From positions 888,564-952,563 of the forward strand of contig PJRA01000077.1 in the NCBI GenBank assembly GCA_016987375.1: a stretch of DNA of 64,000 nucleotides. Reading direction: 5' to 3'. Below, one piece after another: positions 1 through 33,600 of this stretch. The position numbers and the translations under genes were made by a program. The notes beneath the pieces are model-generated. The model was not told where the DNA came from, did not search any database, and worked only from the letters and a program-made list of their open reading frames with translations. Within the stretch, counting starts at the first letter, position 1. Every line of letters starts with the position of its first letter. The DNA is from Brachionus koreanus (lineage: Eukaryota > Rotifera > Eurotatoria > Ploima > Brachionidae).

Positions 1-853
1 TAAAAATACCAAAATTTAAATCTAATTGACTGAATTAGTCGGAATGCTATCAATAAAATAATTATTATTCCTTCATTTTTAATCGAAAACTGGTTAAAAT
101 TTTTAAATGTGTTGAATTGAGATTTGATGTAAATTAAAAATAATTGTGACATTTAACTAAGACTTAAATAGATCACTCTAAAAAAATCCTGATAAATTAC
201 TTAATAATAATAATACTTTTTGATTTAATTAATTATTAGAAAAAATAATCAATTCTAAATAGATTACCGTATTCCCTTGCAGATAAGTGGGCCCTAAATT
301 GTCTCTTTATTGAAAAATTTAGGACTCTTGGTTCAAATATGATATGTATTGAGATCTTAGATTGGCCATCACGAAAATGCAGCGATGAAATGAGGTTTTT
401 ATGAGGGAATACGGCAAAAATTTCTTTGGAGTCTAAGAATGGATTTTTGAATTTTCAGCTTTGTTATTTGTCTTAGATCAAAATTTTAACCAGTAATGAT
501 ATTAGAAGCACATTAAAGCCTTATTAGGGTTGCCTTAATTTTTTCTTTATTTTATTCGCACTAGAAAAGCAAAAAGAAAAACTGAATATTAATATTGTGT
601 TGGTTTCACTTTTTTTTTTACCTAAAATAATTTTTTTTTAATCAATCAAATCAATAATCAAATTCAATCTTATTGATATTTTAATTTTTGTCTTTTTTCA
701 ACAACTGTTATGTTTCCGAAATAACAAGATTTTTCGCTCCTTTTTTTAAAAGCACTAAAAACATGAGAATCAATTAAGTTGATAATTTATTTCGTCTGGT
801 GCTTCTAGTATTTAAAATTTATATTTTTATTAAATTTTTTTCTAATATTTTAG
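1..853. other. 5' flank / probable upstream intron of the sacsin-like gene
   Basis: No coding segment is visible on either strand. The stretch ends in a T-rich tract and an AG at 852-853 that reads as a splice acceptor, so most of it is probably intron of the gene that continues to the right. A short inverted-repeat element lies at 267-414. Confidence 0.6.
267..414. mobile_element. Small non-autonomous element with 11-bp terminal inverted repeats
   Basis: CCGTATTCCCT at 267-277 is matched exactly by its reverse complement AGGGAATACGG at 404-414. The 126 bp between is less AT-rich than its surroundings and codes for nothing. The size and form are those of a MITE. I saw no clear target-site duplication and cannot name the superfamily. 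Confidence 0.4.
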
Positions 854-3800: not shown

Positions 3801-6800
3801 TTCAAACGAGGAGGCGCGTCGTACATCGCCCAAGCATTTGGCTATCGACGAAGTCGAAAAAGTAATCCGCGATCGTTTGAGCTCAATTAAAGTAACATGT
3901 GTCGAGTACTTGGAAACCTCTTTGTCGTATAGAAAATTGTCCAATCAGCAAAAAATTGAGCAAACTGTCGAAGAAAAAGCATGCTATTTGACCAGCGAAA
4001 ATCATCAATTTTCAACACTTTACGTGTCCAAAAAGCACATCGAACAAGCCTATTTTTCTCTATGCCTTGCTCGCAGTCTTCAGCCATTGCTAATCGATTT
4101 GCACTTTGACTATTCGATATTTACATCGCTAATCGCCACTAGTGTAAGTCTAATGAATCGCCTATTGCAGTTGGTCAATGTGGCAACCGAAGAGAACATT
4201 TTGTCAGTGATTAAACTTCAATATGTGCCCTCTAGCGGCAAGTTGTACGGCGACGATGTTCAACTGCTGGCTCCGTACGATCCCAAGCTTCACTCGGTGC
4301 TCATTGGCGACCTATGCGTATTTCAAAACGAACAAGGCGCATATTTGTACTGTCAAATAGTGAAAATTCTCGACCAGGACTTTATGGTCCTGGTGTCCGA
4401 CGAGCCGACTCAAACGCTCAATGTGAACAAAAAAGATTTGTTTGTGCTGGAAAATTGGCACCGAATTTACGATGCTATGCAAGCAAAGCCTCCGGACGAG
4501 CGCGAATCGTTCAAGTATTCGGACAATTTTAGCAATGACAGCAAATCGAAACAGAACAATCAACAGTCGTCGAACAATTCGAATGATTCGAATTTTGACG
4601 AATCGAGCAATGCGTCCGACACCTCCGATGTCAAATCGGAGACATCGTCAAATTATGACGGAAGTTCGGAGAACATACCCAACGCTTTCGAATTGGAACA
4701 AGCCAAAAATGAAGTTAACAATGAGCTGCGTCTATTGTGGTCGTTAGAAGAGAATGAACGTAAAAAGAAAATAAATCGTTTATTGCTTAAATGGCATCCG
4801 GATAAAAATACCGGCAAGGAAAAATTTGCCAGCGAAGTATTTAAGCATTTAAAAAAACAGATTGAATTGTATAAAAACGATCCGTTTTTGGCCGGATTCA
4901 ATTATCGTTCATCGTATTCGTCGTACACACCGGGATTCTCATCTGGCGGGTACAGTTCGTCGACAACTGGTGACGATTACAGATCAAGACACTACAATTC
5001 GTTTGAGAATTTGAATCGAAAAGGAAGTCCCGGTGCAAGTGCAGGTCACTCGCCTCATTCGAGTCCGAGTCGTGACGGCGCATCGGCCGGCACTGGCTTT
5101 GACTATGATGCTAAGGGACCTGGTCCTAGCAATTTGGGACGAGCTGGCAGCTTTAGACAAGAGTGGGAGAGACGCAGACAACAAAAAAGACAAACTGGAA
5201 CCGGAACTGACTCGAGTAATTATTTTTTGTTTTTTTATTAAATAGAATTTTTATATTTTTATGCTAAATAAATTATTTTATTTCCTGCAGACTCAACAGA
5301 AAATGGTTTGTTAAGTTTTTTTCAATTGAGATTTTGTTCGATTTAGAGCTCGTTTATGATGAGTCGTTTTTTTTTTGTTTTTGTTCGAGTTGTATTTGAG
5401 GAAAAAAAATTTTAACTTAAGAAAAAAAGGTGCTTAATCGAATATATGAAATTAATTTTGAATTGGACTTCAAAAAATTCTTTTATCACTTTTTTTAAGA
5501 CTTTTTTTTTTCATCTCCCAGTAGCTAGTTCCTAACTGAATTCCAATTCAATTAGGGTTAAATACAGAATTTTTCTCAAAGGTGTCAAGTCAAAGACTTT
5601 AAATTTCTATTAAATGTTAGTTTGAAATGAAAAATGTTGAATTGAAAAGAAAATTTATTTTTTAATTAAAATATTTTTCGGCATTTTAAATAACTGAACT
5701 AGAAAAAACAAAAATTTAAATTTTTTTCTTTTTGTCGAAAATAGAACTGATCAAAATGTTAAAATTTTTATAACTTTTTCTTTGAAATCAAAAGCAAGCT
5801 ATGTAATATGCAACATGGTTCAACATTCTCAGTTGAATTTTTAAGATCATTCTGATAAAATTCTACAAATTTAGCTAAATTTAAATTTGGACAAATTTTG
5901 ATTTTGCAGAGATTTTAAAGATCAATGGTATTGATGTAACTGTGAATTCTATGTTGCAGTTACAAAATTAGTAAAAAACTTTAAAAAAAAGTTATAAGCT
6001 TTTTAGCATTAATTTTTGTTCTATTTTTTTCAGTGTTGGTTATCGGCAGTGACAGCCATTGGCAGCTTTGATGGCCGTGTACAGAAATAAAAATCTAAAA
6101 ATTTTCAAAAATATAAATTAGATAAATAAATTAATTGAGAATGAAAAAAAATTTAAACTTAGAAATAAAAAGTTTTTTACCCAGCAACCATCAAAGACGG
6201 CAAAAACCAATTTTTGCACTGACGGCATCTAACAATCATTTTTTTCATTTTTTACCAATTTTTGTTTTCACTTGCACCATGATACCGGCTTTTTATTTGC
6301 AAAGTTAATTTTTGACCGAAACAACAAAAGCTACTTCAATATTAAATTATAGGATTATTTTAGTCCAAAAATTCACAGTGCCATATTTTAAATTTGATTA
6401 ATAATTTTTAAAAAGTGAAATGCAAATTAAATTTAAAAATTTGACTTGAAAACATAATAAAAGTCGATTTGATTCTAATTAAAAGTTTGGAAAAAATTTT
6501 TAAATCAGACAGATATTCAGGTTAAAAGTTCTTAAGCTCTTATTTAGTTATTAAATTCATTTTAGTTACGTATTTGGCTTATTGTACATAAATTTTAAGC
6601 TTCAAATTGACTTTTTTTGTGCAAAAAAAATCAAAATGAAAAAAAAAATCCTTTATTCAATTTTATTTCTTATAAAATTCTTTCTAGAGATTTTTTTCTA
6701 ACTTTTTTTTTTCACAACTATTTGATAAATTTAATGATAGTTAAAACAAAAAAGAAAATCGCCTAATTAAGATGCAAATATTTTTACAATTTTTTTGTGT

Positions 6801-8176
6801 TCTTCTGAAATTTATTTAAGTCAATAAAATTCCCTGGCAATCAAAGAAAAATTAATCTATTTCATTATTATTAATATTATCTCCACTGCATAGATATTAC
6901 AAAAAATCATTTTTACTAAATAGGAAAAAATAAAAAGAAGTTACCTTCTCTAAAGATATTTATTTAAAATTTAACTTTAAATTGAAATTAGTTAAAATTT
7001 TAAAATAATTATAATGCATAAACTGGTAATTTAATAATTGTCACTTTTGTGTTTCTAAAACTAACTAAAGTTCCTCTAAATTTATTTATTTAATTAAAGT
7101 TTAAGTCCTATGGACAAATTGAGATAAGAATATTGGACAGTTAAATATCCATTTTACAATTAAGTAAAAAATTCAGTTTGTTTTATAAAAAAAAATGATT
7201 AAGATTATTCAATATACAATATTCTATTAAATAAAAATAGTATTTTATCGAGTCGGTTAGTCAAGAGTTGCTACGTTGATTCATACATAAATAAATCATA
7301 TCAATTGAAAAATTTACTAATATGTTATTTCATTTTAGTAAATTAAAATCAAACAACATCAAGAAATTAATTTTATTAATTTTAAATCACTTATAATCAT
7401 TAATTTGCTTTTATTTATCACTAAAAAAATTTTGAAACGAATCAATACAACTCGATTTTAAATGCATTTACACACTAAATTAATTTTGACTGAATTAATT
7501 TTTTTTTTTACTAATTTGATAGATCGAAGATATAGATCATTTTCAAGAGATTATTATATGGGTAATTGTTTTACTCCGTGTTTGTTAGAGTGGCTTTTTA
7601 AATTCTTCCCTCTTAATTCAAATCATTTTAATTTGATTTAATAAATAATTTTTTTTTCAAAGGAGATCGAAGCAGTCCGTCGTCGGCAAGACGCCGCGGA
7701 ACTGATTTCACACAAATGGATGCAAGTCTCTGGTTTACTCAAGCAAAAGCAGATCTTGAATCGGCAAATAACGACATGCACCCGCTGACTGGCAAGCCAG
7801 CATACGAATGGGTCTGTTACAAGTGTTATCGAGCAGTTGAGAAAGCGTTGCGTGCATATCACTATTTTAAGGGAAACGGTAAGCTGCCTGCTAGTGATAT
7901 TCACGGTCTACTGCTTGGAGTTGATACAAATATTAGAGACATAGCGTTTAGGTTTTGTAATTTTATTGGCAACGAGGCTAATTCTATGCAATATCCTGGA
8001 ATCGCAAGATTCGGAAAAACACCAAATGAAGTCTTCCCATTGAGTAAGTTAAATGCTTGTTAATATCAATTTAAAGTTAAATTTAATCTCAATAATTTTA
8101 AGCTAAAGCCGAGCAAGCTTTGGAATATGGCAAAGAATTGTTAAAGCTAGTTGAAGATATTATTTATGCAAGTTAA
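854..8176 (+). CDS. Sacsin-like protein, C-terminal part (DnaJ + HEPN); 5' end outside window
   Basis: Exons are 854-5215, 7663-8043 and 8103-8176; phases match (1/2 and 1/2) and 1,604 residues are visible. No ATG opens the frame. The first exon follows an acceptor at 852-853, so the N-terminal part (ubiquitin-like and first sacsin repeats in the family) should lie upstream. The long first exon is an alpha/beta region like the chaperone repeats of sacsin. A Ser/Asn-rich linker follows, then a J domain with the HPD motif near visible residue 1314 (HPDKN at 4795-4809) that would stimulate Hsp70. Exons 2-3 encode a HEPN domain with the family patterns WFTQAKADLESA and YEWVCYKCYRAVEKAL. Sacsin is a large cytosolic co-chaperone linked to filament and mitochondrial upkeep. 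G and C are commoner here than in neighbouring genes. J domain before HEPN is the sacsin order, so the family call is firm; orthology is not. Confidence 0.85.
6036..6230. repeat. Inverted pair of a GC-richer dispersed repeat
   Basis: Arm 6036-6078, reverse-complemented, shares the order CCATCAAA, GCC and CACTG with arm 6186-6230. A third copy in the same family lies at 15065-15125. The arms stand out as GC-rich islands in AT-rich intron and are imperfect, so this is an aged foldback or dispersed repeat. Confidence 0.45.
7082..7125 (+). repeat. Dispersed (ATTT)n-GTTTAAGTCC repeat, copy 1
   Basis: TTTATTTATT, then AAAGTTTAAGTCCTATGG, matches the sequence at 24556-24601 (next to an assembly gap) and, inverted, 32551-32597. 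It is probably one end of a repeat family; the other end is not recognised. Confidence 0.4.
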
Positions 8177-9690: not shown

Positions 9691-10194
9691 ATGTCAAGCT
9701 CTAAAATTTCTATAAAGTCTTTCGATTATTCTGAAATAATCAAAGATTTTTTATTTATCGGAAGTCATCAATCATCTAGACATTTAGAGGGGTTAAATGC
9801 ATTAGGAATTACTCATATTCTTGTTTTATCAGGAAAATGTCAATATCCATCCGAATTTATTTATGGCATTTTTCATTTAAAAGATGGCTTAGTATCGGAA
9901 GAAATAGATGAAAAATTTCTAAAAATATCTCAATTTATTGAAGAAGCTCGGCAAAATTCAATCAATCGGATTTTTGTACATTGCAGCGCTGGTCTCAGTC
10001 GTTCACCATACATTGTAATCAAATATTTAATCAAACATTTTGGCTTAAATCTTAATTCTGCATTTGAATTAGTTAAAAAGTCAAGACCTCAAATCCGTAT
10101 GCATGAATGCTATTGTAGTGATTTAATTAAAGTGGATACAGCAAATACATGTTCATTGGAAAAAATTTCAAATAGGAAAATGAACTTTAAATAA
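9691..10194 (+). CDS. Small dual-specificity protein phosphatase, intronless
   Basis: This 167-residue protein, read from the ATG at 9691, is essentially a bare DSP domain. The signature loop HCSAGLSRS lies at residues 97-105 with nucleophile Cys98 and phosphate-binding Arg104. Asp65, in HLKDGL, is placed like the family's general acid. No regulatory domain, signal peptide or membrane segment is present, so it resembles the small atypical DUSPs that act in cytosol or nucleus. Substrate cannot be read from sequence. It has no introns, unlike the multi-exon genes around it, and stands about 1.5 kb from the sacsin-like gene and before a LINE-rich stretch. The phosphatase call is firm; the subfamily is not assigned. 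Confidence 0.88.
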   Translation: MSSSKISIKSFDYSEIIKDFLFIGSHQSSRHLEGLNALGITHILVLSGKCQYPSEFIYGIFHLKDGLVSEEIDEKFLKISQFIEEARQNSINRIFVHCSAGLSRSPYIVIKYLIKHFGLNLNSAFELVKKSRPQIRMHECYCSDLIKVDTANTCSLEKISNRKMNFK

Positions 10195-11041: not shown

Positions 11042-11381
11042 TGGACATATGATTTAACTTAACCGAATTAGGCGCTTGGGTGGTGATTTAATTTAATCAT
11101 TTATAATAATTAATGCACATGAAATTATTAATTCTGAGAATGGTCTAAATTTTTCTTGTAATTTCTTCTAATTCCCTAAATTATTTAATAAATAATTTAG
11201 TCTTTTTTAGATTTCTCGAGGCACTTGATCGCGTTTCGCATAAGCTACTAAAGATCAAGTTAAAGAGCTATGGATTTACCGGTAAGCTTTTGGTGTGGCT
11301 AAAAATATTTCTCCAAGATAGGAAACAGAGAGTAGTAATAGGTCAGTATGAATCTGATTGGGTTGATGTGCTAAGTGAGGT

Positions 11382-12100
11382 NNNNNNNNNNNNNNNNNNN
11401 NNNNNNNNNNNNNNNNNNNNNNNNNNNNNNNNNNNNNNNNNNNNNNNNNNNNNNNNNNNNNNNNNNNNNNNNNNNNNNNNNNNNNNNNNNNNNNNNNNNN
11501 NNNNNNNNNNNNNNNNNNNNNNNNNNNNNNNNNNNNNNNNNNNNNNNNNNNNNNNNNNNNNNNNNNNNNNNNNNNNNNNNNNNNNNNNNNNNNNNNNNNN
11601 NNNNNNNNNNNNNNNNNNNNNNNNNNNNNNNNNNNNNNNNNNNNNNNNNNNNNNNNNNNNNNNNNNNNNNNNNNNNNNNNNNNNNNNNNNNNNNNNNNNN
11701 NNNNNNNNNNNNNNNNNNNNNNNNNNNNNNNNNNNNNNNNNNNNNNNNNNNNNNNNNNNNNNNNNNNNNNNNNNNNNNNNNNNNNNNNNNNNNNNNNNNN
11801 NNNNNNNNNNNNNNNNNNNNNNNNNNNNNNNNNNNNNNNNNNNNNNNNNNNNNNNNNNNNNNNNNNNNNNNNNNNNNNNNNNNNNNNNNNNNNNNNNNNN
11901 NNNNNNNNNNNNNNNNNNNNNNNNNNNNNNNNNNNNNNNNNNNNNNNNNNNNNNNNNNNNNNNNNNNNNNNNNNNNNNNNNNNNNNNNNNNNNNNNNNNN
12001 NNNNNNNNNNNNNNNNNNNNNNNNNNNNNNNNNNNNNNNNNNNNNNNNNNNNNNNNNNNNNNNNNNNNNNNNNNNNNNNNNNNNNNNNNNNNNNNNNNNN
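11382..12100. other. Assembly gap (719 N)
   Basis: The gap lies inside LINE sequence on both sides. Open frames that cross it are artefacts of N being read as open. Confidence 0.98.
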
Positions 12101-12199
12101 CGGTTGTCACAGCTAGTTCGATAAACCAGTTCAAAAACAGACTGGACAATATCGGTAGAAATAAAAAAATGAAAAGTCTACTATAGCGGGATTACTATA

Positions 12200-16735: not shown

Positions 16736-18681
16736 TTACTTAAAGGCTGGAGACTTCATCAAGCGACAAAATTCTAAAATAAAAAAAATATAAAATTTTT
16801 TCAAAATTTTAATTTATGATTAAAACCTTGAAAGTTCAATCTTCCATCAAAATTGGAATCAACCTTTCTTATCATGGTTTCAATTTCATATTCACTAAAA
16901 TTTTGTCCAATATTTCCCAAAATTTTCTTTAGCTCTGACACTGTTATATACCCGGATCCATCCAAGTCAAACTTATTAAAAGCATACCACAAGTCGTTGT
17001 CATCAAATTTTCCCGTGAACACTGGTAACATAAGTCTGCAAAACTCGTTGAAATCCAAATCTCTGCTTCCGTTCCTATCAACTTCACGCATCAATTTCTG
17101 ATAAGCATCTCTGCTTAGTCTAACATTAAGTCTTTCCAAGATTCTATCTATTTCTGAAACATTAATTGTTCCACTCTTATCAGCATCAAAATATTTGAAC
17201 ACTTGCCTCAAGACTAAAATATTTAATCAAAGATTTATTTAATCTAATTAAAATCGTTATCTTACTGCTGATAGATTCAGATTCAGTATTTGATGTTGTA
17301 GTAGTTGTTGTTTTATTCAAATAAGTTTCATAGGAAAGATTCGAATTTTGCATAAGTTTTATTTGACAGTTAAGAATACTGCGATATGTTTGAATTTCAG
17401 ACTCCAATTTGGTCCTAGTAACTGTGTCCCAATACTCAATATCGTTTGCATAAGAATCATTTTCTTGTACTAGTTTTTCAATTTCATTTTGTAATCTCTC
17501 CAATTTTTCTTTATTTTTCAATTTTATATCCATTAAGCCTAAAATATTTATATAAATATATATATATATATTTATTTTTTTTAATCCCAAATAAATATTT
17601 AGAAAATAATTTTTTTTTTTTGAAATTTACCATTTTCTAGACTAGCCAATTTTTTAACTAGATCATTATTTCTTTGATTTAACATAGAAATCTCGTTTTT
17701 GGATGAATTAAAAGTTGAATTCAATTCAGAAACGTTGTAATTTTCAATGTCAATGGAAGCCTCTAATTTTGATTTAGCTCTTTCGGCCATTACTTTTTCA
17801 TATTCAGCCGCTTGAGAAACAACAGACAATTCATTTTCTTTATGCTCTCTGTAGTCTTTCAATTGCTGATCACTTAATTGTTTAAAATCAGATCTTATCT
17901 CTTTGACTGCAGTTACAAGTTCATTTTTATAAAAATTGCTCAAATCAACTGGATTTAATATGGTTCCAGTAGGTCTAGATCTTAAATCAGTAACTTCTTC
18001 GTTATAAACAGCCTTTCGGAAAGACAATTCATCTAGTAAAGTCTGAATTTCGAATTCAAGGCTTTTGTTTTTAAGTCTACTATCCTTTAGTGATACTCTA
18101 AGGTTTTCCAAATCTTTTTCAGCTTTAAAATGCTTGGTCTGTTCGCGAGCAATGTCATCTTCGGCGACCAGAGCCGAACGAACCAGACTTTCGCGTTGAT
18201 CTTTAAATGTATCCAATTGATTTTGTAAGGCCGCTATTTTTTGCCGTTGAGACTCGGATTCAACTTGAAAAAATTTTATTCTTTGATTCAATTCTTGTGA
18301 TAGTGCTTCACTTTCCAGAATTCTTGTCTGATGTTTTACACAATCATACGACTCGGATTCTAGTTTTGTTCGAACTTTTTCAATATCTTGGTCCATGGAG
18401 TTCTTATTAACCAAAGTTGGAAAGTGGAATCCTTTTGCTCGGTCTACTTCAGCAATTAAGTGCTTGTTGAGCGCCTCTAGTGCTCGCACATTTTCCAAAT
18501 AGTTGTGAAGTTGGGCATTTAATTTTTTTAATTCATTTTTCTCTGTTATGTTACTATTTTTTAATTTAAGAACAGCATTTTTTGTATACTGCTCAATGGC
18601 GGTAAAACTTTCAACTTCTGGTTTGGAAGCTGTTACCAAAGCGGCTGCAGCTCTCAATGACTGGGCAGTAAAATTTGACAT
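16736..18681 (-). CDS. Intermediate-filament protein with C-terminal calmodulin-like EF-hands
   Basis: Four exons, read leftward: 18681-17631, 17538-17266, 17213-16827 and 16773-16736. Introns are 92, 52 and 53 bp with GT/AG ends and matching phases; the product is 582 residues. Residues 46-81 are an intermediate-filament coil 1A (LKKLNAQLHNYLENVRALEA). A coiled-coil rod follows to about 410, ending in a diverged helix-termination motif (ESEIQTYRSIL, 396-406). The roughly 365-residue rod fits the long, lamin-like type of protostome filaments. After a Thr-rich linker, where an Ig-fold tail might be expected, come four EF-hands with loops at 450-461, 486-497, 523-534 and 559-570. Loops 1, 3 and 4 are canonical; loop 2 has Arg for Gly at position 6. 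The last exon is inferred: without it the frame runs into intron and loses the EF-4 Glu. It should be a cytoplasmic filament subunit whose tail binds calcium. The exon join is the point to test. Confidence 0.85.
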
Positions 18682-20350
18682 GTTTTTATTCTTCTTCTAT
18701 TAATCTCAAATCTAATTCAAATAAAAAAAAAATCTTTTTTTTAAATAAGCTTTATAATCCTAATTTAAGTATTTTAGAAAATAGAAAATATGCTTTCAAC
18801 TTTTGAAATTCTAAAATCTGGCAACTTTTTAAGCCTAATACATCTAAATTATAGTAAAGCTAAAAGTTGTTCTTTTATATGGCACAATTTAAATATTAGT
18901 AAAACAAATAAGATTTATTTGTAACTTAAGCTAAGATAAGATTGAATTGCTTTTAATCGCAACTCATAAGAGAGCCATATTCGCTATTGCAATTCAGGGT
19001 ACCGAGGTAAACGCTATAAAAAAATTCTTTAATCTTTTTTTTTTTTTTTATTTTAAACAGGTAGATAAACATTATTATTAATAGCTAAGTAATAAATTTT
19101 AGTTTTAATTTTTAAATTAGATATTCAAGTTTGAATAAGCCAGGATTGTCAAGACTTTAAAGAATAAATTTCGAAAAAGTACGGTAATTATTTGAATCTA
19201 AATTTAAAAAAAAATAAAAACTTTTAAGGTTGTCTATTTAACATGCAAATAAACCTTAGTTACTCTTATTTAAATATTTAATCAACATTTATGAAGTAAC
19301 AGTGATTTATTTTTCTTAAAATGGAAACATTCGAATATGTGGGAGATTCAATTTTATCATCTAAACCTAATTTATTTAATATTTTATTTGGTTATTTCAT
19401 TAATTTTTAATTTGATGCTTTAATACGAAAAAAGTGTCTCAATACTTGAGTTTTTTTTAAAAATGAGAATTGAGAATTTTAAAAAATGATTTTGATTTTT
19501 TTATTGACAAAGAAAATTTAAAATTAATTCTATCTAGATAAATTTTTTTATCGTTGTTACATTATTTGAATCTAAGAGGCTTCAAGTATTTTAATGCTAA
19601 ATGTTAATACTCTATTTTATCAGAAACCTTTCAAATTAGAGTGTTTTCAAAAATTGTTTAAAATTGATCACAATTTTATTGATCACAATTTTGTTACGTT
19701 TCTATAGCCAAAACCTTAAATTTTAAATAAAAAAACCCATATAATTTGATTTATTATATAGCAACAAATAAATTTAATAATCAATGTAGTTGCTGGATTG
19801 ACTTCTTTGGCAACATACCTTATATTTTTATCTAACATTTAATTCTGTACCATATTTGCATAATCAGATGATGCTAATTACCATCCTGATAATATTCCAT
19901 AATCATTAGTTCTAGTCGTTTCTTAATACAGCTTCCAAGGTAGACATGCTGATTGACCACTAAACTAGGTAAAAAATATAGTTCGCTTATTCCGCGTTGT
20001 GAAATAGCCAATCAAACTATTAATTTTTCTTCAAATATTTAACTTACTTGGTCTTTAAACTCTTCTGCTTCCTGCTAACGTTACTGTTATAAAAAACATC
20101 ATTCCCTGGCAGAGTGGTTTTGCCAAGACTGAAATATGATTCATCATCAATTATAAATTCATATCTGCTATTATTTTATTTGACTCGTTTTTTTAATTTT
20201 TTTTAAATGAAAACAAAATTATTTTGTAATAAAAATTAAATAAATCTATAATATTTTATTTAAAGAATATGATTAGAAAATAAAATTACAAAAAATGATT
20301 AAATTTATTGAATATAAAACAAATAAAGGAAGTAAAAAGGGAGTTTTAAA
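18682..20350. other. Intergenic, AT-rich
   Basis: This is the upstream flank of the filament gene. I see no gene, RNA or clear repeat up to the LTR target site at 20351. Confidence 0.55.
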
Positions 20351-21579: not shown

Positions 21580-22167
21580 TTAAATTGAACTGACTATTCC
21601 AATAGTACCACATGCGATACGACTTCCGCTATTTCCGCTTTTCAAACTTTCTGGATGATTACCCATTCCTTGATCATCACTCCTTTCGTGAAGAACAATT
21701 GAACGACCAATAATTGAGTTTGGTCCTAGTAATTGTAGTTTAGCGCTTCTAATTGTGGTAACGATTCTTCCATTAATAGTTTGTACATTACCCAAATCTC
21801 CAGCATGACTGTTCATGCTCATAACTGATCCATGTCGAGTTCCAGTTGGATTCCAGTGAGGGCCAGCAGTGTTGCATACTTGAGAAGGGTCAAGCATGCC
21901 ACCAGAGATTCCAAATGTATGAATGTGAACTCCGCGGACTTGGTTCACAATCGGGCTATTAGCTGGCATAAAAGTAACATTTAGTCGAACTACAACTGGA
22001 TCTCTTGGTGAAAGCTGAGAAAATTTGGCATCTCCAAAAGCCATTACTGGCTCGCGCATACCGGGATTCATTATACCACCGCCAATTATTGCCACGGCAT
22101 TGATTGGAAATTTTTGTCCATTAGCATAACAAAAAACTGCAAACAAAAAAACTGCCAATTTTAACAT
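21580..22167 (-). CDS. Secreted Cu/Zn superoxide dismutase, intronless
   Basis: This 195-residue protein has an N-terminal signal peptide (about residues 1-17, ending YANG), so it should dismutate superoxide outside the cell or in the secretory pathway. All metal ligands are present: His81 and His83 (GVHIHTFG), bridging His104 (AGPHWNPTG), His112, His121 and Asp124 (HAGDLGN), and His160 (VLHERSDD). The disulfide pair Cys98/Cys186 and the guiding Arg183 (GSRIACG) are also kept, so it should be active. There are no introns. It sits about 240 bp beyond the 3' end of the chitinase gene, on the same strand. It could be a SOD3-type or a secreted SOD1-type enzyme; the two are not separable here. Confidence 0.92.
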   Translation of the reverse strand: MLKLAVFLFAVFCYANGQKFPINAVAIIGGGIMNPGMREPVMAFGDAKFSQLSPRDPVVVRLNVTFMPANSPIVNQVRGVHIHTFGISGGMLDPSQVCNTAGPHWNPTGTRHGSVMSMNSHAGDLGNVQTINGRIVTTIRSAKLQLLGPNSIIGRSIVLHERSDDQGMGNHPESLKSGNSGSRIACGTIGIVSSI

Positions 22168-22407
22168 GATTCTATTAAATTCAAAAAGCTTAATTTAAAA
22201 TAAAGTCTTCGTTAAATAAAGCTAGTATTTCTTTTTATAGTCAATTTTAAATCTATTCAAAAAGTTTTAGTAATAAAAAGCTTTTTTTTTCTAGATTATT
22301 CTTATAGTGAATAGTGATTTTTGAAAAAAAAAATTATTCTTTATAAAATTTTATTTAAAAAAAAATCAAAATGGCTTAAAAAAATCATGCGCTTTACACT
22401 GTACAAG

Positions 22408-25400
22408 TCATAATTTTTTGAATTTAGTCAAATCACAGTATGTTTCGATCAAATGTTCACATTTTGTATACGAGGCTCTTTTCAAACAGCTACATGACTC
22501 CAAGTCGAAAAAATAATTCGCTTGGCATTTTAGCGCTTTAGTCATGTTTTTTCCACTAATGCTTGCCTCATCACAAAAATAGTATTTAGAACAATCCAAA
22601 GGATCCCTGTAGAGACCTTTCTTTTTGTATGCACAATTGAACGATTCGCTCAAACTTAAAGAAAAAAATTTCTCCGGCTGCTGACTAAGAAGCAACAAAA
22701 GATCGTTTCTGATACGATTTTGCTTTACTAATTCAAAATCAGCATCGGACTCGTCCAGCAAATTGACTTCTTCTTTCAAAACATAGAAAACATTAGCATT
22801 AACTGAGGTCTGTATTCTGGAATTTTTTAGCATTATTTTTTCTTTCTTGTTCACATTGGACGAATACCATTCAGGCAAATAGTCCATGAGTAGAGACATG
22901 CTATTCTTAATTAAAGGATAAGAACCTTGGTGGCAAAATTTCCCACTAAAGTCGTCCATGTCTATAGACCAAATAAATATTCCTCCCAACTTTTTAGCCA
23001 CCACATATGCGGTCTTTAAGAAAGATTAACATTTTTCAAAAGAATTAAATATTTTTTCATAAAATACTCTTAATTGGAAGCTTTTGATATCATCATAACT
23101 AATCCAATCAAAATCTTGATATAGATAATGGCTTTTGCTTTGAGGCTGCCATTCCTGGGTCCAGTTTTTATTCTTTTTTAGGTCACATATTTCGTAAAAG
23201 CTCAAAAAGCCAGCTGTTTGTGTGTAGCTACCAGAAAGCGCATCGTTCTGAATTGTTTTAGATAACAGACCAGATTTTTTTTTGTCTTTTAAATGAAAAG
23301 ATCGGCCATAAGCAGGAAGACCTTTTAAAAATATCGAAATTAGTTTCAATTTTAAACAAGTAAATTTTTAAAAACCCAAAACAAGTTTGTGAGGTGGACA
23401 GCCATTTTTAATCCTTAAAAATTTTCTATTAATACAAATATATGATATTTGAGATAAATTTTACCAATATGTGACAGCCCAGTCTTGATTAAATTGCGTT
23501 TCGGTACCAGTAGCATTTTCATGGTTGTACAAAGGTGCATTCATACCTGTCTTATCATCCCTTTTTGAAAGAAAAATAAAAAATGAAAATAAAAATTAAA
23601 TTTATTTACCAATTTCCATGAAAATCAAACCTTTTTAAAAAAAAAATTAGCTTAATTGATTAATAAAAATTCAAATTTTTGTTAAATTTACGCCATTAAA
23701 TTTATAAAGTCTAACTCAGCAGCTATTTTTTTTATTTCATATCCTTGATCAATTCTTTTTTTCCCAGCTGCAGCTGCTATCGATAAAATAAGCTGATCCT
23801 GGTCTTGATTAATTGACTCATATATAATTGCCTTTCGGAATTCTTTTATCAATCTGGTGAAATTTGGTTTGTCCGCTAAATCACCTCCTCTATCCCCAGG
23901 AAATTCCCAATCTTAAATTCGAAAAACTAAATATATCTGAAAATTTTATTGAAAAAAAATTAACGAAAAATTTACAATATTTTACATATTTTAATTATTT
24001 AGAAAAGGTGATTCTAATAATTTGATTTTTTCTCACAGATTTTATGAGAATTAAATACTAAAGTTAAAATTAATTACTTACCTTTTATTTTAAATTTTAA
24101 TTTTTTATCATTTTAAATAAAATAAATCAAAACAACTAGTTATTTTTATTTTTAATTTTTTTAAATTTATTGCAAATCATGTAGAATAAATTTAACTTAA
24201 TTTTTTTATCCTTGTGCATGTGACAATTAGACTCAAGGGTCGATTATTGTGAAGTCCTCAATTTTAATATCTCTAATTGTACACAATATTTGGTAGCGGA
24301 ACAAAAATTTTATTTATTTAGATAAAATGAAGTTTAAGATTAAATTAAAAGTGATCATGCTGAAAAACTCTCAGAAAAAATAGGTTTTAAATATTTTTTG
24401 AGTAAGAAATTTATTGCAGAAGTACATTTTCAAACTCAATAGTCAATATTAAGCTTAATTTTATACATCTGCAAGCTTCTAAAAAAATTATATCATAAAA
24501 AATTATAAGTATGCATAACTTTACATGGCTATGATTTTTCATCTATTACTAAACATTTACTTTATTTATTTATTTATTTATTTAAAGTTTAAGTCCCATG
24601 GNNNNNNNNNNNNNNNNNNNNNNNNNNNNNNNNNNNNNNNNNNNNNNNNNNNNNNNNNNNNNNNNNNNNNNNNNNNNNNNNNNNNNNNNNNNNNNNNNNN
24701 NNNNNNNNNNNNNNNNNNNNNNNNNNNNNNNNNNNNNNNNNNNNNNNNNNNNNNNNNNNNNNNNNNNNNNNNNNNNNNNNNNNNNNNNNNNNNNNNNNNN
24801 NNNNNNNNNNNNNNTAAACTTTGATAATAAGCTTCAATATGCTTTATTAAGCTGTTTTTTTTTTAACTTTTTAGTCGTTTTGTTTTGTAACAAGGAATTC
24901 AAAAACAAATTTTGAAAATTCTAATCTCATTTAATTCAACATTAAATTTGAATAAAATTTTTAATTAAGACAAAACATTGTCGTTTTTAAAAACAAATTT
25001 TACTTGAAAATTAGTAGTTTTTTTCGCTGAATATCTTGGCTGATTAACCTTTAATCATTTAACCTTTAAATAAACCAAATAATCGAAACGTAAATTAAAA
25101 TTTTTATGGATAAAGTCTAAATTTCTATATGAAAATTATAAATCAATTAATTAATTCATTTTCTTTTTGTAATTATAAATGAAAGATTTTTTAAATGGAA
25201 AATACTAAATCTTGTGACTAAATGTAAATAATTGTTCAATTTTGTTTCCTCAAATTTCTATATTTTCTAGTATTTTTTAAATTTTTTATAAAAATATGAA
25301 GATACAAAAGTGCAAAATTATTTACATTTTCCAATCTAAATAATAATTTTCAAAATAAAGAACAAAAAAGACTAATTACCTAGATCAATTCCATCAAAAT

Positions 25401-26555
25401 TGTAAAAACGTAAGAATCTAATAGCATGAGTAATAAAATTTTTTCTTGTTTGTTTTAACTTTACCATTGCACTGAATTCTTCACTGGCCATACTTAATAA
25501 AATTTTGAATAGATTTTATTTAGAATAGCAAAGAAAAAATTGAATACTTCCAACCACCAATAGCTAGCATAGTTTTAAGCTTAGGATTTTTGTATTTTAA
25601 ATCATTGATTCTTTTATACATTTCTTCATCGTTTTCCTCAATGGTTCGTATTGTAAGCGTATTTTTATCTATGTAAGCAAATGCAAAAATAATGTGCGTA
25701 CATAGGAATGGATCAACATTTTCAGGAAGAAATCGTGCTGAACCTGGCCTGTATTGACTCCAATTAGTAACATAGCATACTTTTTTATATTTGTATAATT
25801 GATCCAAATCGACAACAGGTTTTCGATTTTTATATTTTCGGTTTTTTTTTTTCGATTTTACTTTTGGTATATTTATATTCTCATTTCTATTTAGTTTTAT
25901 TGGAACAACTATGTATGCATATTCATTTTGATCATTATTTATCAAATCATAGCTGTCATTTGATGAGCGAAATTCTCTAATTTTTTCTGGAAAGTCTTTT
26001 GCAAATAAAGTTACTAGTTTTTTTTCTCCGGGACGAAATTTCAACTTTTTGGTAACTTGAAATGAAGTAGTCATTGCATTTGTAGATGCATTTACCATTT
26101 TTGTCTCTAAATTTGATTGACACGGATGCCAAGGAAGCGACCAGACACACTTTTGAATTTTCTCATCAAAAATAAGACCACGAGCACATTTAAATATTTT
26201 GCTAGTTGAAGATTGCATATATGGATAGCATAGCTGGTAGTAACACGGTCCTGCTTCGTTGATGCACATTAAACTTTTCGACTCAGATTCTTTATTCATA
26301 ATAAAAAACATTTAGCTTTTTCAAGAAGAGTAAAATAAAAATAAAATTATTAATAAATTCTTTTTAAAACTTATGAATCAATATGTTTCAATATTCATTT
26401 TAAGAAATTAAAAAATGGTTGTAAGTGTCTAGTTGAAAAATTTTCTCCTACTTACCAAGGTGCTTTTGAAGATAGAATGTGTTGAATTTATGTTGGGCTG
26501 CAGCATAAATTAATAGATATACAAATATAGAGTATAATTCGAACAAGTGTTTCAT
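22408..26555 (-). CDS. GH18 chitinase with chitin-binding domains at both ends (active site intact)
   Basis: Nine exons, read leftward: 26555-26456, 26289-25548, 25492-25380, 23911-23692, 23630-23610, 23560-23465, 23413-23376, 23321-23068 and 23013-22408. All have GT/AG ends and matching phases, giving 729 residues. Order: signal peptide (1-21), a Cys-rich CBM14-like domain (about 42-90), a basic linker, GH18 from about 203, and a C-terminal CBM14-like domain ending at the stop. The catalytic motif FDGIDLDWEF is whole, spans the exon 3/4 junction and puts the proton-donor Glu at 321. IGGWNMASE and GLPAYGRSF are also present. It should cut chitin in cuticle, eggshell or food. Two exons are tiny (21 and 38 nt). 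Intron 3 (1,468 bp) holds an assembly gap. It is transcribed away from the related gene at 30.7 kb. Confidence 0.9.
24556..24601 (+). repeat. Dispersed (ATTT)n-GTTTAAGTCC repeat, copy 2
   Basis: This copy matches 7082-7125 and runs straight into the assembly gap. Just after the gap TAAACTTT is the inverse of AAAGTTTA before it, so the hidden element may have inverted ends. Confidence 0.45.
24602..24814. other. Assembly gap (213 N) in chitinase intron 3
   Basis: The N run begins inside a dispersed repeat, which probably caused the failed assembly. Frames that cross it are artefacts. Confidence 0.98.
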
Positions 26556-28149
26556 GCTACTTCAAAAATTAAATCTAAAATTTAAATGAAATATTTTTTA
26601 AATTATTAGTTATCAATATGAAGCCTAAAAATTCTAAATTGTTTTGAGAAATGAAGGAAACAAAGTAAATATTTATACAAGGAAAATCAGGTATTAACTT
26701 AAGTATTTTAATCAATTAATTAATTCAATTGTAAATACTTAAGAGCCTGGTATAGTAGATTGCTAACATCCATGTAAATTTTTTTGCTAAATCTCGAGTG
26801 CAAATAGCTAATCTTTCTGATCACTCTTAATAAATGAAAACTCGTCTTCTTGTCCATTTGATCTTTTTGCTAAAACTAAAAAATTGATATTTAGAATTTT
26901 AATTAAGAAAGAATTGATTTAAAATTTTGAAAAGTACTAATCTTTTATATGCATCGCATGGACTTATTAAAGTGAATAATATTTTTTTGTGATTTAAGCA
27001 CTAAACTAATCTTTGAATTTTATGTAATTCAAATGACTCAACAAGAAAATTTATTAATGAATAAGTTTCATTGTCACACATAAATAATTAGAGATTTATT
27101 AAATCTTCAAATTATTCAATTCATTTGATAAGTTTTAATATGAGAGTGTAAATCCAATAATTTTTTTTTATTAGATATTACAAAAAATTTTATCTAAATT
27201 TGTATGTTTTGAAGATTAGTAAAAAAACTGTATCCAAATTGTTTTATTCAAGTATTGTGAAACACAGCTTAAAAAAAACATTATACAAATATTAAGTCTC
27301 TTTTAGATTTTATTCTTTCTTAGATTTACTTATTTTTTCGAAAACTTTAAAATCTGAATTAAAAAAGTTTAATTGCAGATTTATACTAATTAATTTAGAA
27401 TAAAATTTTTCAAACCATTTTATTATTCTGTTACATGTTTATTATTTTCTAAACAATTTCAATTTAAAATTAATAATTCATTTATTTTTATTTAATTTTT
27501 CATATTAATAAAATTAAAAGACGACTTAACTTAAGGGAATTAAATATAAGATTTGTACTGTTGCTTTGAAGTTTTTTTTTCACAAACTATGTAAATTAAG
27601 TGCTGTTGAACTTAATAAGAATATTTGCTTTGAATTGTTTAATGTGAAAAGCAGATTTTGGATTGCATGAAACATGTCTTTGAGCTGTGACAAAATAAAA
27701 ATAACTAATAGAACATGAGTGATTAATCAATATTTGATTTAACCAATATCATGAAATTCAAATAACCGAATCAATTCGAATCACTTTAATTCAATTGATT
27801 TCAAGAACAAATATTTATCTAGAGCATAAGAATTTATTCTAAATTAAAATAAAACATAAGCAATGAATAAAGTTTTCTAAGTTTTAATAAATTTGTCCTA
27901 AGTAAATGAAAACAAGAGTAAACACAATATTAATGGTTATTTAACAAGTTTTGTGAAATTCGGTGCAAAAAAAAAATAAATACTAAAAAAGCTTATAATT
28001 TTTTTTCTGAAGGCCTTTGATTAGTTCTGTAAGTGCAACAAAGTGTAACATACTTAGTTGGACCAAAAGTTAAAGTCTGCTAATATGTGCAAAGTCTCTG
28101 GTTTCAACTTAAGGAATCTATCTATCTTCAAATGTTATTTTTCTTGTAG

Positions 28150-28349
28150 GTTTGGTTAATTTCGTTGTACTCTTTCAAGAGTTGACAATAAATAAGCATA
28201 ATTCTGCATTCAATAAATTTTTTCAAAGGGGTTTAAACATGCGCCCCGTATTGCAGATATATTTTGAAGATTTTTCCACCCTTAGTGGGTTTTGAACCCT
28301 CGATCCTCTGCTTGCATGACTAACACACAAACCGCTCGGCTATACGGGC
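28150..28349 (-). mobile_element. tRNA-derived SINE
   Basis: Reading leftward from 28349, the first 75 bases look like a tRNA: an A-box-like TAGCCGAGCGG and a T-arm with GGGTTCAAAACCC. The acceptor arms do not pair well (GCCCG against GGGTGG) and no clean anticodon stem forms, so it is not a working tRNA gene. A non-tRNA body continues left, including CAACTCTTGAAAGAGTACAAC. This is the make-up of a SINE with an internal Pol III promoter. The left limit is approximate. Confidence 0.55.
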
Positions 28350-28506
28350 TCTTATTTGTAAATATGCTTCTTCTTCTTCGGTAAATTTTTATCAAAAAAG
28401 TACTTAAAAAACTTATATTAATGAAAATTTTTGAGCACGATTATTTTTAATTTAATGTTTTTTTTTACAAAATATTGTTAAAAAATTTAACGGTGTAATT
28501 TTCGTG

Positions 28507-28720
28507 TTAACACTCAAAGGACCGGCAGTGAACACTTTTTCAAAAATTCAAATTTAATTTTTTAATTAACTATCAATCATACATACATTTTTAATATTTA
28601 TTTTAAAGCTTTGAAAATGATCTTTTAAATTTAGTCTTTTACATGTTACAGACTTTTATGGAACTAGTGTAACATTTAAACAAATTTTTTGACAAAAATA
28701 GCCGGTCCTTTGAGTGTTAA
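28507..28720. mobile_element. piggyBac-like MITE with perfect 20-bp inverted ends including TTAA
   Basis: TTAACACTCAAAGGACCGGC at 28507-28526 is repeated exactly, inverted, at 28701-28720. TTAA at both outer edges is the target duplication of piggyBac elements, and the terminus CACT is found in some of them. The 174-bp interior codes for nothing. Perfect ends suggest recent movement. Confidence 0.75.
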
Positions 28721-29009
28721 AGAAAAATAAAAAAAAAAACAATTTTTAATTACGTTAAATCAAAATAAAAATTTAATAAAAAAAATTGATATTTTATGCA
28801 CATATAAAATTCTTGTTATGATTCAAAAGAGTAAAATGTTTCTAAAAATTGTCTAAATTTCAAATTTTTGATTCATAAATTTATCAATGTTATATAATTG
28901 AACATCAAAATAACTTTTTAGAAAAAAAAAATTATTTTTTTTAAACTTATTTCTAAATTTAATAAATAAAAAGCATTAATAAGCTACTATTCAAAATACA
29001 AAATACAGT

Positions 29010-29600
29010 CTAAAGCCATTTATCAGCGAGCAGTTCGATTCTTTGGTAGCATTCACGACTTTTAGAACTTGGGGCACTCTTCTTCAACTTGGTCTTCTTC
29101 AGTAAAATGCCATCATCTATAAGAAAATGAGCCATCGAACGAAAAAAGATGATAATCAGAAGGAGAAAGATATGGGCTATATGCTGCATGTGGAAGAAGT
29201 TCGTTCGTAGTTTTTCGAGCAACATGAGGTCTAACTTTATGTTGAAGTGACAAACTCAGCTTTCGGTTTCTTGAAATGAAGCATAAACTTGTTCCAATTG
29301 GTCATTATAAAGCTTTGTATCTATAGCACAACTTTCTGGAACTAGCACAAGTTTATTACCCCTTAGAAATTCGACCAAACAAATAACATCATCTTTTTAT
29401 CAAAACGTCCTTTTCACGACTGGCTGAGTTGGTCGAGATTATTCGAACCACTTATTTCTGTCATCATAAATTTGAAAATACATTCATTTCTCATCAGAAG
29501 ATCATTTATAATTGGCAAATACAAAGCTTGGGGTTGCTCTCAATAGCAGTACGCACAGCTTTTTGATCGATAATAGGTCTAACTGAGGCTTTCTTCTTCT
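29010..29600 (-). pseudogene. Mariner-family transposase pseudogene
   Basis: Across all three minus frames, pieces of a mariner transposase appear in order: RPIIDQKAVRTAIESNP (DNA-binding part), RTFDKKMMLFVWSNF, LIMTNWNKFMLHF-like text, SPSDYHLF (with the last catalytic Asp of the DD34D triad) and ECYQRIELLADKWL at the C terminus. Several stops and frame changes show it is long dead. No terminal repeats were recognised. Confidence 0.75.
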
Positions 29601-30695
29601 GAAGGTTTGTATTATCAATATAAAATTTTAAAATTATTAAGAATTTAATATTGGTAACTTATAATTCAATATGAATTATTAATAAATGCAAAAAAACTAA
29701 TTAATTTTGGAACTGAAGGTTTTAAATAGAAGTATTTTTAGTCATAAGTAACAATTTTTTTAGTTTAAAAAAAATGATTTCAAATAATATGAAATTGTGG
29801 TATTCTTAATTTATTTAATTTATTAAGTTTTAGAATAACAATGTTGCTAAAATCATAAATATCTAACATTTTAAAAAATGTAAATGTATTTTATTCATTT
29901 GATTTATTTTATTTTGAAATTAAACTTCAATGTTTACTATTTTAAAAATTTAGTTAATTTTTTTTTATTATAATAGACACAGAATACAAAAAAATTTATT
30001 TTAGAATTTTTTCGTGTTCTAGATCTAAATTTTAATTCACAAAACATTCTTAAGGATTAATTAGCTTTTATTTTATTTTTTCAGATTATCTTTCAAAAAA
30101 TCTTGCTCATAAATAATCTTCTTTGTATAAAAAAAGTTTTTGCTTATTTTTTTTAAGTACTAATAAGGTTTTTTTGACCATGTAGAAAAAAGCCAACATT
30201 TATTACTGAACAATTAGCTATGATAAGTCTATATTTGAACAAAAGATACAAATAATCAAGTTTTTTCTTTACCGAACAAGTAAAATAAAAGATTAAGAGT
30301 TTGCCTTATCTAATCCTTACCAAAATAGGTCTGTACTTCGATGATTTTAAATTTGCATAAAAAACATTTACAAATAAAAATTAATCCCGATTTTGAACTA
30401 AACAAAAAAATAACAAGATCGAAAGACCGCTGTGTTTGTAGAACAACAGCGTCCTTTATTTACTTATTTTGAACAAAAAAATTCTTTTTTTTTTATTTCC
30501 AATATGATTAAACAAAGAGAAGATTGGGACAAGCTTAAACTATTAAATCATTAAACTTAATGTTTGCACTATTTTATTATTTGACCAAACCAAAAAACAA
30601 AAGATAAAATTTCAATTAAATATTTGCAAGACTTTATTTTACACTAAACTAAACGCTATTTAATAATGATGATAAAACTAAAGAGACAAAACCAC

Positions 30696-33600
30696 ATGAA
30701 TATCAGTAAACTTTTGTTTATTATTTTGCTGCCAATTGCTTTGTCAAAAAGTAAAATAAATTTATTTTAATTGTCATGTAATAAGCCTTTTTTAGGAAAT
30801 TCAAAATTATGCCGTGACCCATTTAATTGCCAGGTATTTACATCTTGCACTGATGGACAAGAAGATGTCGGAGAATGCTCAAATAATTCAGTTTTTAGTG
30901 AAGACTTTCAAAAGTGTGTTCCAGCTGTTTCTATAGAAGATTTTCAGTGTATCATTTTGGCAAAATTTTTATCCGATCAAAAAAATAAGAAAAAATTTTC
31001 TTCTCTGGTTCATTCGCGGAAAAATAAAACCCAGAAGACAGAGTCTAGTGAATACATAATAGAAGACACTACTGATGATGGCAACGCTTATAAGCGAATG
31101 TGTGTAGTTACAAATTGGTCTCAATTTCGGCCTGGCCGTGGAAGATTTAGCTTTGATTTCATAGATGCCACACTTTGTAATCATGTTGTTTACGCTTCAG
31201 TCAAAGTGGTCGAAGCCGATTATGACTATTATGATACGGAAGAATTTGAAATTCAAGCTGTTCAGCATAATGAGATGGATTTGTATTATAAATTGAGAGC
31301 TTTAAAAAAACAGAATCCTTCACTGAAACTAATTCTTAGAATAACAGATGAAAATGGTCGTATTTATTCAAAATTGTCCAAAAGTTTTGATACGAGATTG
31401 AATTTTTGCCGTAATCTTCTTGAATATATGGAAGATAATGGGTTTAATGGTGCTGAAATAGAATGGCGTTGGCCTGCAGGACCATCAGGCATTCCAGCTG
31501 ACAAAGAAAACTTTATTCTCTTACTAAAAGTAATTGTTATTGCAATTTTTTTTTCAAATTATGATGTCATTATGAGGTCAAATTTTAATTTTTAATTTTT
31601 GAATCAAAGATATTTGTATCCATTTTATTTTTTAATTTAGTAACAAATTTGGGAATCGTATTTATCGATCCGTTTTTTTTTAAAGAAAATTTTCCAAATC
31701 ATTAGATATCCAAATTTTATTTTTTCAAAAAGATTTTATCTTACTTTTTTCTGGTATTCTGTAAAATAATTCAAGGAAGGTTAGTAGCAAAAAAAAATTA
31801 ATTTTTTAGAATTTTTTAGAAAATATTTTTTAATTAATTAAATATTTGTATTAATAGAATGATCTACTGCTTATAAAAATTTATTCCTATTTTTCATTGT
31901 TTAACACTCAAAAGCTGCTGCTGACAATTTAAACTCTATTTAAAAAATATTTAAAAAAAAAATTGAATTTTTGAAAATTTGATTAACGGCCACATAGAAG
32001 TAGACCATACTAAAAAAGCTATCAAATTGGCACCAGCCCTTTGAGTGTTAAAAGATGTATTTACAACGTTTGATTTTACAGGCATCTTTTAATAAGAATA
32101 AATTCGAATTAAATTTTTAAAATATTTTTCTGAACGTTCCGGATCATTCATGAACGATCAATTTCATAATTTTTTCACAAATTTTTATTATATTTTTAGG
32201 GCATTTATGTAATCTTTAGTTTTGAAAAAAGTAAACCTTATTTTTGTTTTAAGATTAAAAATATTTGATAGAGAAAATTTTTCTTTCATTAGACAGTAGT
32301 GTAAATTAATGATTTTTTTTAGTTGCACGCAATATGATGTAGCATTCAGTTTTTTTTTGGTTCTTTGAATGTAACAATTCTTGACCAACTTACATGATAA
32401 AATAAGCTATTTTTGCTTTATCGAATTTTATGTGTTAAATAATCTTGGTCATTTTTGGTTTGATAATTTTTTGTATATTACCAAACTTAACTTTTTATCT
32501 AATTCTAAAATAGACATTTGATTGTCTCTTATTTTACAAACAAATCATATTAAAATTTTTCCATGAGGGACTAAAGTTTTAATTAAATAAATAAATAGAT
32601 ATTATCAAGCAAACTTTTACAAAACTCATTTTTGTGGATCTAAAGGTTTATTTTCATCATTGCTAATTGTCTTTCCCTTTAGATTATAATTATTTGATAA
32701 TTCAGACAAATAGAAGATGTATTACCTTGCTTAAGAAGACGTGCATTAATAGTCGAAGAAACATGTTTCTAGTATTGGTGCTTCTAGTGTTAAGCTAGGT
32801 AATATGGTAGCATAACTAGTAATAGAATATTTTCTAACTATCTGAATTTTGAATTCAAAAATTCTTTAAAAAATTTAATTTTTCAAATAAGGGATTATCT
32901 GTCTTTCTTTATTTAGCCACGAATCTAATCTGATAGTCAGACTTTTCAAGTATTTAGATAAGAAAATAATGTTTGAATGATCATGACTGTACTGAAGTGC
33001 TTTTTTTAGATAAAAAAAATTTAGTTTCAGATAAAATTTTTTTCCTCATTCACCTCTTGCGGGACCATAGAGTAATTGCTTTTGATTTCAAATCAAGTCA
33101 ATCCTTTCCTTTAACCATTTCTTTCCCCATTTAGGTGAGCTGTTTTGTATATATTTTATATAGAGATCAACATTGACTTCTATACACGCCTTGAAGCTCT
33201 CAAATTGTTCTTTCACATAAAATGGTTTTAAATAAATATTTTTAAAGTGATTTTTAATTTTTTTAAAAGGATTTGCGATTTAAATTTTCTTCCAAATATA
33301 TAATTGGTATTATAATGTCACCATTAACCGAACGCATCCAATCATACAATCTCCTTGAAATAAACAACTTAGTTGACTATGTGAATGTTGAAGCATTCGA
33401 TTTTTATGGACCTTGGAACAAAAAAACTGGACTGATGTCTCCATTAGGAAAAATGAATGAACAAATTTTACTTGAAACATACATGAATATAGAAGGCACC
33501 GTTGGTTATTTGAAATCACTAGGACTTTCGATGGATAAAATAGTTCTTGGCTTGGCTGCCTATTCTCGGAGCTTTACACTGCAGCATCCGATGGCAAATC

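Follow-up and report, generated by a model that had tools for sequence, protein, structure and literature searches.

A stretch of 64,000 nucleotides from Brachionus koreanus (here called the window) carries an intermediate filament (IF) rod and four EF-hands in close succession on the minus strand, raising the question of whether these are parts of one protein or of two adjacent genes, and what a calmodulin-like tail would do on a filament subunit. Control of IFs is usually external, through phosphorylation and partner proteins.

Gene and protein organization

The IF-EF gene, as we call it, lies on the minus strand, with four exons and three GT-AG introns of 92, 52, and 53 bases (Table 1), and its 1749-base spliced frame runs through 582 codons to a TAA, with no stop in between. 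Each of the introns is phase 1: the cumulative exon length, divided by 3, leaves 1 at every junction. The junctions proposed in an earlier, sequence-only reading of the window (17631/17538, 17266/17213, and 16827/16773) proved exact, with GT...AG introns, matching phase, and a frame that is open when spliced. The donor-site string searched for has a single occurrence in the window; scans of all 64 kb for Rfam families and tRNAs gave no matches. The predicted protein runs from a head through a full IF rod and a linker to four EF-hands with their calcium ligands in place.

Pfam Filament matches residues 47 to 408 (E 3.5e-23; 83.1 bits against a cut-off of 40; profile positions 2 to 309 of 313), and by profile the protein belongs to the Filament family across the whole rod. 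Segment boundaries were taken from P0001, a B. plicatilis relative that is equally long and aligns gaplessly with the window protein, using only the secondary structure of its model; this model is of low confidence (pLDDT 62.1, pTM 0.26) and places four helix-loop-helix units after the linker. The coil 1A and helix-termination-like end described by the sequence-only reading are both present, the helix-initiation motif EKNELKKLNAQLHNYLENVRALE and the helix-termination motif KLESEIQTYRSILN aligning with other IFs of the same genome. The rod itself also stands, at about 370 residues; the earlier figure of about 365 is the length of the exon 1 open frame. The 1B block is of the long lamin/protostome type, with 155 residues against 154 to 157 in six own IFs (lamin included). 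Coil 2 plus L12 exceeds that of five own IFs by 8 to 13 residues, and the helix ends in TYRSILNCQ, compared to TYRRLLECEE or TYRRLLEGEG in own IFs (LNCQ against LECEE or LEGEG in L002 to L004). Because of this deviant helix end and the longer coil 2 with L12, polymerization of the predicted protein into filaments is not certain.

Heads of the family share a short hydrophobic motif, in the window version SLRAAAALVTA. Counting the window protein, 17 of 27 family proteins match a strict pattern, five of them twice (P0004, P0012, P0013, P0015, and P0018), and near matches are seen by eye in several others, such as P0008, P0009, P0010, and P0017; the pattern was composed after the sequences had been seen, and the count is descriptive, not a test.

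Two Pfam EF-hand_7 stretches (E 4e-29) cover the tail, of which residues 437 to 577 match calmodulin by sequence search. All four EF-hand loops of the sequence-only reading are joined in frame, with ligand positions 1, 3, 5, 7, 9, and 12 filled by D/D/S/T/N/E, D/N/S/D/D/E, D/D/S/Y/T/E, and D/N/D/R/N/E in loops 1 to 4, the last residue of loop 4 being the bidentate Glu. Position 7 of EF-hand loops binds calcium through the backbone, and position 6 is usually Gly; in loop 2 it is Arg. EF-hand pairs of this ligand type take up calcium at micromolar concentrations and uncover hydrophobic pockets, and calcium binding by the predicted tail is very likely. The EF part contains four Met, fewer than calmodulin, and for this reason its target binding may differ from that of calmodulin. 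A model of exon 3 (pLDDT 63.6, pTM 0.44) has the helices and short strands expected for EF-hands, and the best 50 of 1116 matches in a Foldseek search with the whole protein are EF-hand proteins, with 133 to 149 aligned columns and poor TM-scores by target (0.15 to 0.41). A Pfam scan found no lamin tail domain (PF00932) in the IF-EF protein.

The window also contains ordinary genes assigned by Pfam (Table 1), several chitinase-like frames (by eye) with chitin-binding ends on both strands at 22411-35100, and a 1487-codon open frame without a Pfam match at 778-5238. Downstream of the latter is a HEPN domain frame (7632-8060), and the pair, to our eyes, recalls sacsin. Masked stretches at 11149-12191 and 46216-47082 are flanked by frames resembling reverse transcriptases (by eye).

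Table 1. Features of the IF-EF gene and Pfam-assigned genes in the window (positions in the window)
Feature	Position	Strand	Basis
Exon 1: ATG, head, coil 1A, coil 1B, L12, start of coil 2 (residues 1-350 plus one base)	17631..18681	-	splicing, Pfam Filament, P0001 model
Exon 2: remainder of coil 2, helix-termination motif KLESEIQTYRSILN, Thr/Ser-rich linker	17266..17538	-	splicing, alignment, P0001 model
Exon 3: EF-hands 1-3 and most of EF-hand 4	16827..17213	-	splicing, Pfam
Exon 4: last part of EF-hand 4 (junction within Glu 12 codon), C-terminus FCRLMKSPAFK, TAA	16736..16773	-	splicing
Intron 1: 92 bases, GT-AG, phase 1; also in C21 copy, with indels	17539..17630	-	splicing, copy comparison
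Intron 2: 52 bases, GT-AG, phase 1, separating rod from EF part; one AATAAA	17214..17265	-	splicing, copy comparison
Intron 3: 53 bases, GT-AG, phase 1	16774..16826	-	splicing, copy comparison
Upstream block, likely promoter and 5' leader	18682..19299	-	98.2% identity to second genomic copy
Head motif QSLRAAAALVTA (residues 7-18), common to many relatives, repeated in some	18628..18663	-	pattern search
Coil 1A (residues 45-84)	18430..18549	-	alignment, P0001 model
Coil 1B (residues 93-235), long lamin/protostome type	17977..18405	-	alignment, P0001 model
Coil 2 (residues 247-413; intron 1 lies within; predicted break 322-327)	17351..17943	-	P0001 model, alignment
Linker (residues 414-437), without predicted structure	17279..17350	-	P0001 model
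EF loop 1 DADKSGTINVSE	17152..17187	-	loop alignment
EF loop 2 DRNGSRDLDFNE (Arg at position 6)	17044..17079	-	loop alignment
EF loop 3 DLDGSGYITVSE	16933..16968	-	loop alignment
EF loop 4 DSNFDGRLNFQE; last two bases at 16773-16772	16827..16860	-	loop alignment, splicing
Dual-specificity phosphatase	9691-10191		Pfam
Cu/Zn superoxide dismutase	21583-22194		Pfam
Tpt1/KptA RNA 2'-phosphotransferase	54545-55207		Pfam
LCAT family	59983-61284		Pfam
Ras-like GTPase	61589-62227		Pfam

Relatives with rod and EF-hands

A first protein search, in which the 7994 candidates sharing most words were scored, gave 25 proteins at E up to 0.001, 23 of them in the IF-EF family and two EF-hand proteins only. A profile search gave 26 matches of 7995 scored, two of them new (P0026 and P0027) and with EF-hands only; distant IFs may have been crowded out of the scored candidates in both. 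Searching from the junction of P0006 gave 11 matches of 119, including three new family members. The sequence-only reading had suggested a search for Filament plus EF-hand, and the fusion layout does recur: both annotations are carried by 11 of the 26 family proteins (P0001, P0002, P0003, P0004, P0006, P0007, P0010, P0012, P0028, P0029, and P0030). In our own Pfam scan of eight of these 11 (E up to 1e-6), all eight and the window protein score above the Filament cut-off, P0012 and P0030 with Filament only. Seven entries have the complete layout (P0001, P0002, P0003, P0004, P0006, P0028, and P0029), P0028 and P0029 being two variants of one sequence, and the remaining four dual-annotated proteins stop inside the EF part. 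With seven complete entries, the sequences indicate that the layout is not due to chance.

The closest relative, P0001 of B. plicatilis, has 582 residues and is 88% identical to the window protein over 100% coverage without gaps; its public database name is "calmodulin," despite the 582-residue filament fusion. P0002 and P0003 (78% identity, 586 residues) are on contigs of 1888 and 1878 bases, P0006 (589 residues) is on a 2008-base contig, and P0028 and P0029 (577 and 589 residues) are on contigs of up to 1771 and 1856 bases. P0004 has 906 residues on a 2923-base contig, and its four EF-hand_7 stretches amount to eight EF-hands. We take these six entries other than P0001 as transcripts, apparently intronless, because their contigs leave little or no room for introns. 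All three junctions are crossed gaplessly in P0001, P0002, P0003, and P0006, the linker before junction 2 varies in length, and the complete relatives share a PVFTGKFDD-like segment between the lobes.

Among the 26 family members, 15 are without visible EF-hands. Of these, six (P0005, P0008, P0017, P0019, P0020, and P0022) end at the site of intron 1 or within about 40 residues after it, as expected of unspliced genomic frames, and it is possible that the others truly lack EF-hands. B. plicatilis is the one organism given for the relatives, and we confine our claims to Brachionus.

One gene or two

Contig C21 of the genome carries the gene a second time, with all 1749 coding bases kept and zero indels. 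Over the whole coding sequence the copies differ with dN 0.0043 and dS 0.169 (dN/dS about 0.025), and over the EF part with dN 0.0028 and dS 0.206 (dN/dS 0.014); from codon 431 onward, 15 of the 16 differences are at third codon positions. These substitution patterns indicate that purifying selection acts on the whole frame, EF part included. Identity between the copies is 98.2% (aligned bases) over the 618 bases that precede the ATG, higher than in the three main coding exons (96.0 to 96.8%), and falls to 82% over the next 600 bases further upstream; positions 18682-19299 are likely a strongly conserved control region or 5' leader. Intron 1 is 93.6% identical, with 15 gap columns, and intron 2, at 84.6%, is the lowest among the start-to-stop parts by aligned bases. 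Among the candidates scored in the 83-Mb assembly of 92 contigs (150 of 331 and 75 of 104 first-look candidates), rod and EF-hand matches are adjacent only at C35 and C21.

C35 and C21 also share matching copies of several other genes, including EF-hand genes and one resembling the ryanodine receptor, and dS values of 0.17 and 0.13 were measured in two C35/C21 genes. By sequence, the two contigs could be either highly divergent haplotypes or an old duplication.

Could an IF gene have been joined by mistake to an adjacent calmodulin-like one? There are two signs in favor, both in intron 2: an AATAAA, which also occurs in 22% of shuffles of the intron, and, in the window copy, a sequence that is open in the rod frame. 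That frame stops in the C21 copy after SKIRI, and the rod and EF exons are only 52 bases apart. A separate EF-hand gene would need its own start and promoter; from the end of exon 2 to EF loop 1 the only ATG is out of frame. A second promoter would have to sit in intron 2, the part with the low identity of 84.6%, and comparing the window with the C21 copy reveals no conserved noncoding stretch dividing the rod exons from those of the EF part. Junction 2 is moreover closed up in P0001, P0002, P0003, P0006, P0028, and P0029. The third junction rebuilds the essential Glu (residue 12) of EF loop 4; without splicing at intron 3, this position is Gly and the frame stops seven codons later. We therefore set aside a separate EF-hand gene, against which start, promoter, and relatives' layout all speak, and consider two genes highly improbable. 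The scenario named beforehand as fatal to the fusion, a transcript end near 17266 with a separate EF promoter and start, is contradicted by the sequence. The absence of an internal in-frame ATG, the split Glu-12 codon, and the selection across both parts support the in-frame fusion that the sequence-only reading had proposed, and they indicate that rod and EF-hands form one gene and one predicted protein.

A conserved short isoform formed by reading through intron 2 was considered and rejected on account of the stop after SKIRI in the C21 copy. A short form without EF-hands, made by alternative polyadenylation in intron 2, is possible.

Kinship of the rod and the tail

Six further IF loci are present in the genome. 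A lamin tail domain accompanies four of them: by Pfam it is in frame in the lamin L001, in L002, and in L005 and in an adjacent frame in L003, with no hit in L004. A rod-only IF frame with a very long branch is seen at C32:41517-42839 (L047), with no tail visible, adjoining an 803-codon frame. In a tree of 33 rods (27 of the family, window included, and the six other own IFs), the family sits behind a 100/100 branch of length 2.95; long branches meet in this tree, its bootstrap is not quite settled, and the exact place of the family within the IFs is provisional. Nor is the tree a test of tail gain or loss within the family, because 15 family rows bear no EF label. Rod identity is 48 to 54% to the five divergent family members compared and 20 to 25% to five own IFs (21 to 25% to L002 to L005, 20% to the lamin L001). 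We tentatively place the family with the cytoplasmic IFs because the segment after L12, FYKNELxxAVRQIRxDF, is nearer that of L002 (FYRHELERAIRDIRSDF) and L003 (FYRTELERAIRDIRGDF) than that of the lamin.

A tree of 17 EF modules splits the nine IF tails from eight own EF-hand proteins (95/96), and the two modules of P0004 pair at 81/81. On the simplest reading, the fused tail arose once, and P0004 duplicated its module internally. Of the eight own proteins compared, the closest match to the tail is in an EF-hand cluster on C4 (36.6%; cluster range, 31.0 to 36.6%), whose fork with the IF tails is supported only at 87/53; an EF-hand gene on C31 is 32.4% identical. The C4 cluster consists of EF-hand open frames at C4:1805292-1813450. 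The window itself has two more EF-hand open frames (36820-37236 and 38083-38508, minus strand), the first with calmodulin-like EF-hand pairs. Descent of the tail from the gene at 36820-37236 was rejected, with 27.5% identity and no kinship in the tree.

The tail has four EF-hands in two lobes, as calmodulin does, and aligns with it over its full length. Calmodulin, however, is a free protein of about 149 residues, and the fused IF-EF module is hence not calmodulin; the tail is 28.7% identical to the genome's own calmodulin exon, and we take L009 and L010 to be separate own genes with calmodulin sequence. Alpha-actinin, the nearest functional analogue, also joins a cytoskeletal rod to a calmodulin-like domain at its C-terminus, through which cross-linking is tuned, but its rod is of spectrin repeats and its head binds actin, a likeness in working and not in kinship. 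The S100-fused proteins profilaggrin and trichohyalin likewise have EF-hands that serve an epidermal intermediate filament layer, but they lack an IF rod, act as partners of the filaments, and have N-terminal EF-hands of the S100 type.

With protostome cytoplasmic IFs, the IF-EF protein shares the head, coil 1A, long coil 1B, L12, coil 2, and the start and end of the helix. It differs in the extra coil 2 residues, one residue inserted before EIQTYR, the LNCQ end, and the family-shared head motif, and it has the four-EF-hand module in place of their lamin tail domain, an Ig fold that is usual but not universal in these proteins. The lengths of segments 1A and 1B are shared with lamins; own lamin L001 has a lamin tail domain, whereas the IF-EF protein has the EF-hand tail and the C-terminus KSPAFK. 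L001 ends in KFLGLWKSQP, the C-terminus that Table 2 of PMC10125929 gives for B. koreanus and for none of the seven other monogononts in it, which agrees with B. koreanus as the most likely host. The rotifer lamins listed in PMC10125929 lack CaaX, and Kollmar 2015 (PMC4448529) lists odd lamins, including one with a PDZ domain.

The sequence-only reading knew of no filament family with a calmodulin-like tail, and we too found no description of one in the open-access literature searched. The words EF-hand and calmodulin are absent from the main texts of PMC4448529, PMC10125929, and PMC4829535. We conclude that this is a real IF subfamily with a tail type apparently undescribed for IFs.

Proposed function

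We propose that the gene probably encodes a cytoplasmic IF subunit whose calmodulin-like tail senses calcium and regulates the filament network. IF rods form parallel dimers and then filaments. The tail would be a covalently attached four-EF-hand module replacing the lamin-tail/Ig domain, and if the rods pair in parallel and polymerize, every dimer would expose two calcium-sensing modules, set at fixed intervals on the filament. A rise in cytosolic calcium would open the modules, allowing them to take hold of a target, which might be hydrophobic helices from neighboring subunits' heads (of the type S-[LMV]-[KR]-A-A-x-x-L-V-T) or another partner, and this grip would stiffen, bundle, or loosen the network. 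A calcium-dependent change of assembly or cross-linking is the mechanism that we think best, with an even prospect of being right; that the head motif is the target of the tail is a candidate idea, and an unlikely one.

Two other roles would leave the gene structure as described. The tail may dock a partner or buffer calcium without controlling assembly, which we regard as somewhat unlikely. The four conserved loops and the PVFTGKFDD-like segment between the lobes would also fit a fixed binding partner, and the linker, length-variable and without predicted structure, suits a free module; the sequence is compatible with buffering, docking, and regulation alike. Alternatively, the protein might be an IF-derived coiled-coil calcium sensor that no longer forms filaments, for example, a cross-linker at cilia, muscle attachments, or adhesive glands. 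The very long branch and low identity of the rod to the five own IFs point that way, as do the deviating helix end and coil 2 length, but coil 1A, the coil 1B length, and the EIQTYR end are preserved, as is FYKNELxxAVRQIRxDF at the start of coil 2 in most members, and the Filament cut-off is exceeded by the window protein and all eight scanned relatives; we think this role improbable. For a calcium-sensing filament subunit, the integument is a tentative and somewhat unlikely candidate for the main site, an attractive idea because rotifers have a syncytial epidermis (PMC10125929) with an intracytoplasmic lamina (PMC13403294, on Asplanchnopus). More speculatively, and doubtful as a whole, the rotifer IF subfamily, with its 4- and 8-EF-hand variants, could be a self-sensing cytoskeleton in which calcium waves switch cross-linking through the grip of tail on head motif, perhaps stiffening the syncytial integument or setting the retraction of corona and foot.

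If the proposal is true, a filament subunit with a built-in calcium sensor would control IFs in a new way. The protein also bears on which proteins build the filament layers of rotifers, an open point, and it shows that an apparently ordinary public "calmodulin" entry is something else.
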